A stretch of 27,438 bases of DNA from a bacterium (GTDB lineage Bacteria; JALSQH01), in NCBI GenBank assembly GCA_026985515.1, contig JALSQH010000213.1:1-27438 (forward strand). The letters are read 5' to 3'. Every line of letters begins with the position of its first letter. Position 1 is the first letter of the stretch. The position numbers and the translations under genes are program-made. Positions 3,226 to 25,343 of this stretch are shown one piece after another. The notes beneath the pieces were generated by a model, which was given only the letters and a program-made list of their open reading frames with translations, did no database searches and had not been told where the DNA came from.

Positions 3226-6200
3226 TTATGCTTCTGTTCTTTCTTCCTCTGTTTCTGCTGTTTCCTTCTTTTCCTCCTCAGCAAGGACCTTCATCTTCAG
3301 CTTATGATACTTTGGAAATCCAGTTCCAGCTGGAATCAGCCTGCCCATAATTACATTCTCTTTAAGTCCATGGAGATAATCTATCTTTCCAGCAATGGAG
3401 GCATCTGTTAAAACCCTCGTTGTCTCCTGGAAGGATGCAGCAGAAATCCAGCTCTCAGTGGTAAGGGCCGCTTTGGTAATTCCAAGCAGAACAGGCTCAG
3501 CTTTTGCGGGTCTCTTACCTTCCTCTATCATTTTTCTGTTCTCTTCCTCAAAGATATATTTAGGTACATCCTCTCCGGGAAGGAAGAATGTATCCCCTGG
3601 ATCAACAACCCTCACTTTCCTGAGCATCTGTCTGACAATGATCTCAATATGTTTATCGTTGATTTTAACTCCCTGATTCCTATAAACCTCCTGAATCTGA
3701 TCAACAAGGTATCGTGCAAGTTCCTTCTCACCTTTAACCTTGAGGAGAGCATGAGGATCAGGAGCACCCTCAACAAGCTGATCACCTGCCCTTACGTAAT
3801 CTCCTTCCTGAACGATTATATGTTTCCCGCTGGGTATGAGATACCTCTTGGGTTTTCCTATTTCAGGCTGAATAATAATTTCCACTTTACCCTTCAGATC
3901 CTGACCCCTGTGGACAACGCCATCTATTTCTGAAATAATGGCGTAATTCTGAGGTCTCCTTGCTTCAAACAATTCAACAACTCTCGGGAGACCACCTGTA
4001 ATGTCTGTGGCTTTTGATGTTTCTCTTGGAATCTTTGCTATAACTGAACCAGCTGAAATTTCATCACCATCCTTGTAAACCAGAAGCGCACCAATGGGAA
4101 GGTCATATACCGCATCCTGACCTCTGTAGGTTTTCAGAATATTTCCATCCTTATCTGTGATGATAGCTCTGGGCTTGAGGTTTGGATCTTTGGGTTTAAT
4201 TATCCTTCTGGTGGACAGACCCGTTCTTTCATCGGTGGTTTCTTCCATTGTCACATTCTCCACAACATCCTCATATCTTATAATTCCGCTTACATCTGAA
4301 ACGATGGGGTTATTGTATGGATCCCACTCTGAAATCTTTGCTCCTTTTGGTACCTTGCTGTTTTCCTCATAATAGAGGATTGCACCATAAACTCCTGGAA
4401 ATCTTTCCTTTTCTCTACCAGTCTTTTCATCAACTATCTTCAGATAACCACTTCTATTTACTATTACAAGCTTTCCATCTTTGTTTCGAACAGTGGCAAT
4501 TCCCTCAAATTTAAGAATTCCACCAAATTTGCTCTCCTGAGAACTCTGTTCCATTTTTCCTGTAGCAGCGGCGCCACCCGTATGGAAGGTTCTCATGGTA
4601 AGCTGAGTACCGGGTTCACCAATAGACTGGGCAGCAATTACACCCACAGCCTCACCAAGATTTACAAGTCTTCCACGTGCCAGGTCTCTTCCGTAACAGA
4701 GGGCACACACTCCTCTCTTCGCTTTACATGTGATAACAGATCTTATCTTCACCTTTTCAATCCCGGCATTCTCAACAGCCTCTGCCAGTTCCTCTGTAAT
4801 CTCCTGATTCCTGTAAACAATTATCTCTCCTGTATCAGGATGAATTATATCTTCTGCTGCGACTCTTCCGAGAATTCTGTCTTTCAGATGCTCAACTAAT
4901 TCTCCATTTTCATAGAGAGGAGTCATTTCAATCCCATCAAGCGTACCACAATCATACTCAGTAACTATCACATCCTGAGCAACATCAACAAGCCTTCTGG
5001 TGAGATATCCTGAATTTGCAGTTTTAAGAGCTGTATCAGCAAGCCCCTTTCTTGCACCGTGAGTCGAGATGAAGTATTGAAGAACGCTCAATCCCTCTCT
5101 AAAATTAGCAAGGATAGGAGTTTCAATAATATCTCCTGATGGTTTCATCATCAGACCCCTCATTCCGGCAAGCTGCTTCATCTGATCAGAGGAACCCCTT
5201 GCACCAGAATCAGCCATTATGTAGATGGAGTTAAAACTCTCAGTTTCTACTTCGGTTCCATCAGGTCCCTTCACTTTTTCCTTACTGATCTCCTTCATCA
5301 TTTCGCTTTTAACTTCATCTGTAGTCCTCTTCCAGATATCAACAACTCTATTGTGTCGTTCACCGTCGGAGATCATCATATTTCTATGCTGTTCCTCAAT
5401 CTTCTTCACCTCTTCTTCAGCTTTTTTAATAATTTCCCATTTCCTGGAAGGAATCTTCATGTCATCCACTGCAATTGAAATTCCGGCTCTGGTAGCGAAA
5501 TCATACCCCATCTGCATCATTCTATCTGCGAATATGACGGTGGTCTTCTCACCAGCTCTCCTGTAGGAAAGATCAATGAGGTGTGCCAGATCTTTCTTTT
5601 TGAGATTTTTATTAACCTCATCAAAAGGAATTTCCTTTGGAACAACTTCATAGAAGATCACCCTGCCAGTTGTCGTCTCATAAATTTTTCCATCAATCCT
5701 TACCTTTATTTTTGCATGGAGGCTGACCTCACCATTTTCAAATGCAATCCGCACCTCTTCCGGAGATGAAAATGTCATGCCCTCACCTTTCTGGAAGGGT
5801 CTCTCCCGGGTCATGTAGTAAATTCCAAGAACAATATCCTGAGTAGGATAAATTATCGGCTCACCGCTGGCAGGTTTCAGAATGTTGTTGGTGGACATCA
5901 TAAGCACCCTTGATTCAGCCTGAGCCTCAAGGGAGAGAGGTACATGAACTGCCATCTGGTCTCCATCAAAATCTGCATTAAAGGCTGTACATACAAGGGG
6001 GTGCAATCTTATTGCCTTGTCTTCAACAAGAACAGGCTCAAAAGCCTGAATGCTCAGCCTGTGAAGAGTGGGAGCCCTGTTGAGGAGAACCGGGTGCTCC
6101 CTTACAACCTCTTCAAGAGCCTCCCAGACTTCGGGATCACCTCTTTCAACCATTTTTTTGGCTGCCTTTATTGTGGAAACTATTCCCTTTTGCTGGAGCT

Positions 6201-22513: not shown

Positions 22514-23659
22514 GTGAGGTGCAACATTTTTACGCAGGAGCATGAAATTTTCAGAAGGACGGTTAAGAATTTTGTTGAAAAGGAAATCAAACCATATGCA
22601 ACTGAATGGGATGAAAAGGAAGAATTCCCGAGAGAGCTTTTCAAAAGGCTGGGGGAACTGGGATTCCTGGGGATAAAGTACCCCGAGAAATATGGAGGAG
22701 CCGGTCTGGACTTTACCTATGAAACTGTATTTATTGAAGAAATGGCAAGGGGTGGGTCACTTGGAATGCTGCTGAGCATACTGGTACAAACTGACATGGC
22801 AACACCTGCAATTTACCATTTCGGGACAGAGGAGCAGAAGGAAAAATTCCTGAAACCGGCTCTTTCCGGTGAAAAGATTTTTGCAATAGGAATAACAGAA
22901 CCAGGGGCTGGTTCAGATGTTGCTGCCATAAAAACGACCGCCAAAAGAGAAGGTGATTACTACATTGTAAATGGAAGCAAAACATTCATAACAAACGGAG
23001 CCATTGCTGATTATATAACCCTTGCAGTTAAAACCGCACCTGAGAAGGGGCACAGAGGTATAAGCCTCCTTATTTTTGATACAGGAACTGAAGGTTTCTC
23101 TGTGGGGAAACACATAAAAAAGATGGGCAACTGGGCATCCAACACCGCTGAACTATTTTTTGATAACTGTAGAGTGCCCGTAGAAAACAGGATAGGGGGA
23201 GAAAACATGGGGTTTTACTACATAATGAAGGGCTTTGAAACTGAGAGGTTATCGGGAGCAGTTATGGCTCAGGCTGCTGCTGAATATGCCCTCGAAATAG
23301 CACTCAAGTACGTGAAGGAGAGAGAGGCATTTGGTAAAAAGATAATAGACTTACAGGCAATAAGACATCGACTGGTGGATCTTATGACAGAGGTGGAGGT
23401 AAGCAAAAGATTCCTGTACTATGTAATTGACAAATATGTATCAGGTGAAGATACACTAACCGAAATAACAATGGCCAAACTCTGGATAGGGGAGATGGCC
23501 ATAAGAGTGGCAAACGAGGCTCTGCAATTTCTGGGGGGTTATGGATACACAAGGGAATACCCCATTGAAAGAATATTGAGGGATGTTAGACTATATACGA
23601 TAGGAGGCGGAACATCAGAAATAATGAGAGAAATTCTTTCCAAAAGACTTTTATCCTGA
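22514..23659 (+). CDS. Acyl-CoA dehydrogenase (LCAD/isovaleryl-type active site)
   Basis: This flavoenzyme makes the first double bond in fatty or branched acyl-CoA oxidation and passes electrons to ETF. The 381-residue length is standard. ACAD signatures are GITEPGAGSD at 126-135 and QFLGGYGYTREYP at 338-350. The carboxyl motif reads IGGGTSEIM, with Gly365 where medium-chain enzymes have their catalytic Glu. Glu244 in FETERL sits where long-chain and isovaleryl-CoA dehydrogenases carry the base, so the enzyme should be active but of that subclass. Chain-length preference cannot be told. The start is GTG, seven bases after AGGAGG. The end overlaps the PEGA gene. It probably works with the nearby FadH-like reductase. 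Confidence 0.9.
   Translation: MRCNIFTQEHEIFRRTVKNFVEKEIKPYATEWDEKEEFPRELFKRLGELGFLGIKYPEKYGGAGLDFTYETVFIEEMARGGSLGMLLSILVQTDMATPAIYHFGTEEQKEKFLKPALSGEKIFAIGITEPGAGSDVAAIKTTAKREGDYYIVNGSKTFITNGAIADYITLAVKTAPEKGHRGISLLIFDTGTEGFSVGKHIKKMGNWASNTAELFFDNCRVPVENRIGGENMGFYYIMKGFETERLSGAVMAQAAAEYALEIALKYVKEREAFGKKIIDLQAIRHRLVDLMTEVEVSKRFLYYVIDKYVSGEDTLTEITMAKLWIGEMAIRVANEALQFLGGYGYTREYPIERILRDVRLYTIGGGTSEIMREILSKRLLS
23602..23607 (+). promoter_or_regulatory. AGGAGG site that places the PEGA gene start at ATC
   Basis: AGGAGG lies six bases upstream of ATC at 23614-23616 in the PEGA reading frame. It also encodes part of the conserved glycine run of the acyl-CoA dehydrogenase, so it could be coincidental. 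No ATG, GTG or TTG occurs in this frame between the last upstream stop (23587-23589) and the GTG at 23761. Confidence 0.4.
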
Positions 23660-24576
23660 TTCTGCTGATCTTCACATGCTCAAATTCTCTGCTCTCTTCT
23701 CATGAAGTTCTTATTACCACCGACCCTCCCGGTGCCTTTCTCAACATTGATGGTAAGCTTGTGGGCAAAACTCCAGTTATAATTAACGAAGATTCACCAT
23801 TCAAGGAGTATTCAATCCTCATTACAAAGAGTGGTTACAGACCTCTGCAGAGAACTTTATTCAGTAATCATCCCGGCAATGGATTATGGGAAAGCCTCTT
23901 CTTTGGTGGAGGAATCTCACTTTTACTGGCAACCCCTGCCCTCCCCTCAACCCTGCATCCCCTCACCATTTCCTCCTCCATTCTTTTCATGCTTGCATCA
24001 ACTTCTCTTCTTGACAGATACCACTTCCTTCTAGTGAGAAAAGATGGGAAAAGGAAAATATCAACTCCGGGCATAATAAAATGGAAATTTCCTGTGAATT
24101 ATTTTCCCTCTGATGAGAGATTCAACATTTACTTTGCCACAAGAAAAGAAGTGGACTCAGAGGGTCACAGCAAGAGAATCATTCTCAACCTTAAAAGATT
24201 TTCTGCACAATTCGATATTCTCTCCAGCTTCTCTCATCATACCACTTACGAAAACCTCTCACTCCTTTTTTATCCCGGGAAAAACTTTGAAGGGAAGTTC
24301 TCATTAATAATGGATGAGTTCAAATATTCAGGATTCAAAATTGGAATCAACAGACTTTTTCCCATATGGAATGGCGATTATGGGAGGGTCTTTCAGGTTT
24401 CTGCGGGAATAGGAGGAGGGAAGCTCAACAATAAATTTATTCTTTCCGTTCCTCTTCTGGTGGAAGTTTCTGTCACAGAAATAACATCCTTCTTTTCAGG
24501 TATTGAATTTGACCATACTGGTGCGGAAAAGAGTATCGATATGGGTATCTTAACTGGAGTAAGGTTTCTGTTCTGA
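23614..24576 (+). CDS. PEGA-domain envelope protein with barrel-like carboxyl part
   Basis: From the proposed ATC start the protein has 320 residues. Residues 1-29 make a good signal peptide: basic start, hydrophobic TFILILLIF, then SNSLLSS. A PEGA domain follows (residues 31-80: VLITTDPPGAFLNIDGKLVGKTP and onward), a small beta domain found in surface or periplasmic proteins. Two hydrophobic stretches occur near residues 92-112 and 117-133. The carboxyl part has alternating beta-like strands and ends VRFLF, with the final Phe typical of outer-membrane barrels. GTG at 23761 would cut the PEGA domain and remove the signal, so it is rejected as the start. The gene overlaps the acyl-CoA dehydrogenase by 46 bp and the next gene by 1 bp. 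Function is unknown. Confidence 0.65.
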   Translation: MRNNERNSFQKTFILILLIFTCSNSLLSSHEVLITTDPPGAFLNIDGKLVGKTPVIINEDSPFKEYSILITKSGYRPLQRTLFSNHPGNGLWESLFFGGGISLLLATPALPSTLHPLTISSSILFMLASTSLLDRYHFLLVRKDGKRKISTPGIIKWKFPVNYFPSDERFNIYFATRKEVDSEGHSKRIILNLKRFSAQFDILSSFSHHTTYENLSLLFYPGKNFEGKFSLIMDEFKYSGFKIGINRLFPIWNGDYGRVFQVSAGIGGGKLNNKFILSVPLLVEVSVTEITSFFSGIEFDHTGAEKSIDMGILTGVRFLF

Positions 24577-25343
24577 TGAGGATCACTGTTCTGGGTTCTG
24601 GAACATCTACCGGGGTTCCCGTAATAGGATGCAGCTGCGAGGTATGCAGATCTGAAAACCCCAAGAATAAAAGAACTCGGAGCAGTATCTACATTGTTGA
24701 AGATGAAACTCATATTCTTGTGGACACAACCCCCGATCTGAGATTTCAGGCTTTGAGGGAAAGGATTACCAGAATTGATGCGGTGATTTACACCCACACT
24801 CATGCCGATCACCTCCACGGCATAGATGAATTGAGAATCTTTAATTTTCTGAAAATGGGTCCAATTCCAATCTATTCCTACAGAGAACATCTTGAAGAAA
24901 TTAAAAGAAGATTCTCATATATATTTGATGGGAAATCTGCTCCAGGAGGTGGAAAACCGTGGCTGATTCCAGAAGAGGTGAAAGAGAACGAACCCTTCAA
25001 GATCGGTAGACTTGTCTTTATTCCATTAACACTGTACCATGGAAATATGAGGGTCCTTGGATTCAGGTTAAAAGATTTTGCTTACCTCACCGATTGTAAC
25101 AGGATCCCTGATGAAAGCATGGAAAAACTCAGGGGAGTCAGGGTCTTAATCATTGATGCTCTGAGATACTCTCCACACCCCACACATTTTTCTCTATCGG
25201 AAGCAATTGAAATTATAAATGTGATTTCTCCTGAAAAGGCGTATCTCACTCATATGAGCCACGATTTTGATCATGAAAAACTGAAAAATGAACTTCCAGA
25301 TAACGTTGAACCTTCATACGATGGAATGGTCATTGAGTTATGA
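24576..25343 (+). CDS. PhnP-like metallo-beta-lactamase-fold phosphodiesterase
   Basis: This 255-residue MBL-fold hydrolase opens with LGSGTSTGVPVIGC, the PhnP-type amino terminus. Metal ligands are all present: His74, His76, Asp78 and His79 in THTHADH, then His155, Asp173 (LTDCN) and His226. The extra structural zinc site of PhnP is also recognisable as Cys19, Cys21, Cys24 and probably His229. E. coli PhnP opens cyclic ribose phosphates in phosphonate breakdown. No phn genes are seen here, so the natural substrate may be another cyclic phosphodiester. The start ATG overlaps the PEGA stop as TGATG, and the stop overlaps the next start as ATGA, so translation is likely coupled through the operon. 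Confidence 0.85.
   Translation: MRITVLGSGTSTGVPVIGCSCEVCRSENPKNKRTRSSIYIVEDETHILVDTTPDLRFQALRERITRIDAVIYTHTHADHLHGIDELRIFNFLKMGPIPIYSYREHLEEIKRRFSYIFDGKSAPGGGKPWLIPEEVKENEPFKIGRLVFIPLTLYHGNMRVLGFRLKDFAYLTDCNRIPDESMEKLRGVRVLIIDALRYSPHPTHFSLSEAIEIINVISPEKAYLTHMSHDFDHEKLKNELPDNVEPSYDGMVIEL

Follow-up and report, generated by a model that had tools for sequence, protein, structure and literature searches.

An intact gene for a PEGA-domain protein, found in the window (the whole stretch of 27,438 nucleotides analysed here, which belongs to a 2.36 Mb genome, G000), offers no ATG, GTG or TTG codon ahead of its conserved domain, and probably starts instead at a near-cognate codon (ATC, CTG or ATT), among which the evidence leans towards ATC at 23614. 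The open frame (23590-24576, forward strand) is bounded upstream by a TAG codon (23587-23589), runs to a TGA codon (24574-24576), and is otherwise intact over approximately 300 codons. According to both the sequence and a six-frame list of open reading frames, its first canonical start is a GTG (23761-23763), which lies inside the match to the PEGA domain (PF08308, residues 39-89 of the open frame, 23704-23856, forward strand, E = 1.2e-7, 31.9 bits against a gathering cutoff of 20.8), as the initial annotation had stated. A canonical start is thus missing from the frame before the conserved protein begins.

The start region overlaps a gene encoding an acyl-CoA dehydrogenase (22514-23659, forward strand), which has a GTG start behind GAGGAGG and a TGA stop (23657-23659). 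The enzyme is complete, with full N-terminal, middle and C-terminal Pfam domains, and its C-terminal end is normal, many homologs stopping at about the same place. Seventeen matches to it, some of them fragments, are present in the same genome, and another acyl-CoA dehydrogenase gene (L112, G000:C109) is frameshifted at approximately 4660-4690, its N-terminal part (ATG at 4414) being in another frame. The PEGA frame is -1 relative to that of the window's dehydrogenase, and in this register an NTG codon requires that the next dehydrogenase codon begin with TG, i.e. that it encode Cys or Trp or be the stop codon TGA. The last 27 residues of the dehydrogenase include no Cys and no Trp, and the sole site in this stretch that could hold a canonical start is the NTGA at the stop, which actually reads CTGA (TCC TGA). 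In 20,000 synonymous recodings of the overlap, no canonical start arose upstream of the hydrophobic stretch of the PEGA product. The overlap therefore lacks ATG, GTG and TTG because the coding sequence of the dehydrogenase forces their absence, a constraint that the initial annotation had overlooked, although the missing start that it reported is real. The absence of a canonical start at the dehydrogenase stop and in the next 100 bases is not forced: any serine codon of the form TCN except TCC would create ATG, GTG or TTG at the stop. The genes around the PEGA gene are tightly packed in the same direction; the downstream gene, encoding a metallo-beta-lactamase-fold protein (24576-25343, forward strand), has an ATG that overlaps the PEGA stop (TGATG) and a stop that overlaps the following gene (ATGA). 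The commonest gene junction in the sampled part of the genome is a 4-base overlap, the usual overlaps being of 1 or 4 bases.

ATC at 23614-23616 (forward strand) is put forward as the start codon on the strength of its Shine-Dalgarno (SD) site, spacing and signal peptide. An SD-like AGGAGG (23602-23607, forward strand; SD match 6, spacing 6), embedded in the dehydrogenase codons ATA GGA GGC GGA for IGGG, is followed by CGGAAC and then by the ATC, an arrangement noticed earlier and borne out here. The SD spacing of ATG genes in the same genome peaks at 5-6 bases, and no other candidate near-cognate start of the PEGA gene has a strong SD site (match 6). Translation from ATC 23614, and from no other candidate, would also yield a full signal peptide, composed of a charged n-region and a long hydrophobic core, so that the earlier expectation of a good signal peptide holds: the signal-peptide-like stretch QKTFILILLIFTCSNSLLSSH (23641-23703, forward strand) reaches a Kyte-Doolittle value of 3.31 over FILILLIFT and has three Lys or Arg residues before it, signal peptides being judged here by hydropathy and charge. 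The evidence from the SD site is weaker than it appears, because AGGAGG...ATC can be a by-product of the conserved dehydrogenase motif IGGGTSE, which alone can spell both elements. The same SD-6-ATC arrangement occurs in 3 of 25 other motifs of the xGGG type (the window's own copy, L005, being left out of this comparison), where no PEGA gene is present, and 2.5% of synonymous recodings in a codon-shuffle null model place an SD match of at least 6 before a near-cognate codon. An ATC start also implies a 46-base overlap with the dehydrogenase gene, longer than is usual in this genome. With the caveat about the dehydrogenase motif standing, a near-cognate codon does lie at the proper distance behind an SD site, and a non-canonical start behind AGGAGG is still the best reading of the region, as first proposed, with its SD argument reduced.

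We infer a near-cognate start for the PEGA gene, with ATC 23614 as the most likely codon, which the AGGAGG six bases upstream would select within mRNA that is still coding for the dehydrogenase. The predicted product would begin with fMet-RNNERNSFQKTFILILLIFTCSNSLLSS, forming a Sec-type signal peptide with the PEGA domain directly after it. Expression from ATC would presumably be reduced and might be modulated by IF3, as for other such starts. The likelihoods attached to this and the following readings of the start are judgements and not computed values.

A lesser but credible possibility is termination-coupled re-initiation, in which ribosomes finishing the dehydrogenase would restart at CTG (23656) or ATT (23659), two codons (23656-23661, forward strand) that overlap the upstream TGA as CTGA and TGATT. 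Such coupling would suit the TGATG and ATGA overlaps at the two following junctions of this cluster, as well as the prevalence of 4-base overlaps in the sampled genome, and a membrane-protein gene described below (L147) apparently begins at a CTG preceded by a strong SD site. Both codons have a weak SD site (match 4), however, and a product started at either would have a short hydrophobic core and no positively charged n-region; moreover, a silent change of TCC could have supplied a canonical start at this very junction.

Approximately 1.25 Mb of the genome, about half, was screened for frames in which coding signal, judged by codon usage, sets in ahead of the first canonical start (1145 coding frames, of which 1046 are closed at the 5' end). 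Flagged frames were read by eye, so the resulting count is a lower estimate and partly a matter of judgement. Most of them are ordinary, and five further genes have no usable canonical start, nearly all of them lying behind a strong SD site: infC (SD match 8), recG (7), a MinD/ParA-like ATPase gene (7), a Wza-like lipoprotein gene (5) and a gene for a small membrane protein (9). For comparison, 247 of 817 ATG genes have an SD match of at least 6. Because the same genome has these other near-cognate starts, a non-canonical start of the PEGA gene is better supported than the initial annotation could know. About six such genes in roughly half a genome looks high against the known examples, but the screen is uncalibrated and we claim no rate. 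Codons behind SD sites are enriched genome-wide 1.5-fold for ATA and 1.0-fold for both ATT and ATC, versus 19-fold for ATG; a new genetic code or general initiation at AUA was rejected because of this near lack of enrichment, which also weighs against the ATC reading. Nothing suggests a special tRNA, since an initiator-like tRNA with a CAU anticodon and GGG/CCC in the anticodon stem is present. The 16S gene was not found in the assembly, so the anti-SD sequence could not be read. One gene, which by eye resembles those of thiamine-diphosphate enzymes, is broken by an in-frame TGA (L106, G000:C263, minus strand, 5831-5833 of the reverse complement).

Two of the five genes keep their near-cognate start in G001, the closest relative with a sequenced genome, which belongs to the same family but another genus and is 80% complete; the phylum is represented here by these two genomes. 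The recG gene, identified by Pfam (L107, G000:C157, 15076), starts with ATA behind AAGGAGG, and its G001 ortholog (L254, G001:C120, 1036) likewise has ATA, in the context TAG AAG GAG GAG AGC AGA ATA AAT CTG; the two genera share the element ATA AAT CT(A/G), preceded by AAGGAGG or AAGGAGGAG. The ATA is followed by 57 codons in G000 and 44 in G001 with no canonical start. In the aligned region, 25 of 44 residues are identical, and the nucleotide differences are distributed 12/6/25 over codon positions 1/2/3, which matches the expectation for coding sequence. The MinD/ParA-like ATPase gene, also assigned by Pfam, has ATA behind AAGGAG (L151, G000:C32, minus strand, 16865 of the reverse complement), and so does its ortholog (L247, G001:C153, minus strand, 1516 of the reverse complement; TAA AAG GAG AAA GAG ATA GGA AGG ATA ATT). 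The P-loop precedes the first canonical start in both genera, and in G001 the gene has no canonical start before the P-loop because the in-frame TAA bounds the frame. In G014, a genome of another family, ATG GGG AGG aligns with this ATA start. A near-cognate ATA start together with its SD site is thus conserved between two genera for both recG and the ATPase gene, so that ATA starts in the family of G000 and G001 are well supported by comparison of the genomes, and their conservation is evolutionary evidence that selection keeps near-cognate starts far from model species.

The infC gene, matching the IF3 family of Pfam, has ATT or ATA behind GGAGGT (L127, G000:C7, 2353-2358) and no canonical start; its G001 counterpart is cut by the end of a contig. 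The Wza-like lipoprotein gene, matching the polysaccharide export family of Pfam, begins ATT AAA AAA ATT (L197, G000:C58, minus strand, approximately 307 of the reverse complement), which aligns with ATG AAA AAA ATC in G001 (L268, G001:C123), and the Cys of its signal peptide precedes the first GTG. The small membrane protein has as its only plausible start a CTG behind AAAGGAGGT / AAAGGAGGTAGGTAAA (L147, G000:C28, 5402), and its match in G001 is to the C-terminal part only, at the end of a contig.

These genes bear directly on the proposal that the missing PEGA start is a consensus error or strain variant. The assembly would then show an erroneous or minority base, and the organism itself would carry a canonical start, for example NTGA at 23656, where a single base would be enough. 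This is judged improbable, nonsense-broken frames being scarce. The assembly is a draft in 268 contigs, and damaged genes do exist in it (the frameshifted dehydrogenase on C109 and the in-frame TGA in L106). If approximately five lost starts among 1046 genes were due to substitution errors, the implied rate would be approximately 2 errors per 1000 bases, by a rough estimate in which 7 of 9 ATG changes are visible as a lost start; assuming that 4.5% of codon substitutions are nonsense and that a gene has approximately 900 coding bases, approximately 85 nonsense-broken genes should then accompany them, whereas at most three candidates were seen, and substitution errors were rejected on this count as the cause of the genes with no start. 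Errors also cannot account for every start of this type, given the ATA starts conserved in G001, and any indel at the junction would have disrupted the end of the dehydrogenase, which is normal.

Similarly doubtful is the idea that the internal GTG at 23761 is used, giving a protein with no signal peptide and a truncated PEGA domain, or that the gene is decaying after a recent loss of its start. This GTG is the first canonical codon of the frame, and the gene may be dispensable, as no match to the PEGA protein was found in G001, the one other genome of the phylum examined. Searches of 59 genomes found no ortholog, yielding weak PEGA-domain matches only, and no relative of the protein was found among GTDB contigs. 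The nearest relatives of the dehydrogenase are at most 54% identical, and therefore no orthologous junction could be aligned. Use of the GTG would nevertheless cost the PEGA match its first 19 residues, and the product its signal-like stretch, and the sequence that precedes it, TTTCTCAACATTGATGGTAAGCTT, has no SD-like site; the intactness of the frame argues against decay.

Programmed -1 frameshifting, by which ribosomes translating the dehydrogenase would pass into the PEGA frame, had been offered as an alternative in the initial annotation and is very improbable: the PEGA frame is indeed -1 and stays open over the 69 bases that precede the dehydrogenase stop, but inspection of the overlap codons before the stop (GAA ATT CTT TCC AAA AGA CTT TTA TCC TGA) reveals no slippery heptamer of the form X XXY YYZ in frame, and the fusion would have a signal-like stretch embedded midway in a cytosolic enzyme. 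A near-cognate start is, in sum, more probable than a frameshift, a sequence error or use of the internal GTG.

A wider and more tentative suggestion, drawn from the sequence patterns, is that this poorly sampled lineage may begin a small group of genes well beyond infC (recG and the genes for the MinD/ParA-like ATPase, the Wza-like lipoprotein, the membrane protein and the PEGA protein) at AUN and CUG codons preceded by strong SD sites, and that the level of IF3 could control these genes jointly; whether near-cognate starts form an IF3-sensitive set becomes testable. Because gene finders generally accept ATG, GTG and TTG only, genes with other starts are truncated or missed: the signal peptide and part of the domain would be dropped from the PEGA protein, and the P-loop from the MinD-like protein.

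The PEGA gene would most likely join an already known class, that of non-canonical bacterial start codons. The infC gene starts with ATT in Escherichia coli and with ATC in Streptomyces, and the sigR gene of Streptomyces starts with GTC, as shown by experiment, with repression by IF3 demonstrated (PMC5472188). Streptomyces infC is the natural precedent for ATC, and infC and the PEGA gene would share an ATN start, but infC autoregulates IF3, whereas no connection between the PEGA gene and IF3 is known, and the SD site of the PEGA gene sits within another gene. The infC gene of G000 itself, with ATT or ATA behind GGAGGT, resembles the known cases of infC autoregulation. Like the PEGA gene, sigR would be an instance of a non-canonical start outside infC, with a different codon. 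In Staphylococcus aureus, infC and ccpN start with AUA and cvfC1 with AUU behind extended SD sites, and expression of reporters from such near-cognate starts is approximately 10-30% of that from AUG (PMC13009471). There, ccpN and cvfC1 are ordinary genes whose near-cognate starts are set by strong, well-spaced SD sites and recur in other species, much like recG and the MinD-like ATPase gene here, with the difference that the starts of ccpN and cvfC1 were demonstrated with ribosome profiling and reporters and those described here are known from sequence alone. Overlapping gene pairs that undergo termination-reinitiation have a canonical start at the stop codon (PMC10666635), and the TGATG and ATGA junctions next to the PEGA gene are of this kind; the junction of the PEGA gene with the dehydrogenase differs from them in offering only CTG or ATT at the stop, the favoured ATC lying 46 bases inside the upstream gene.
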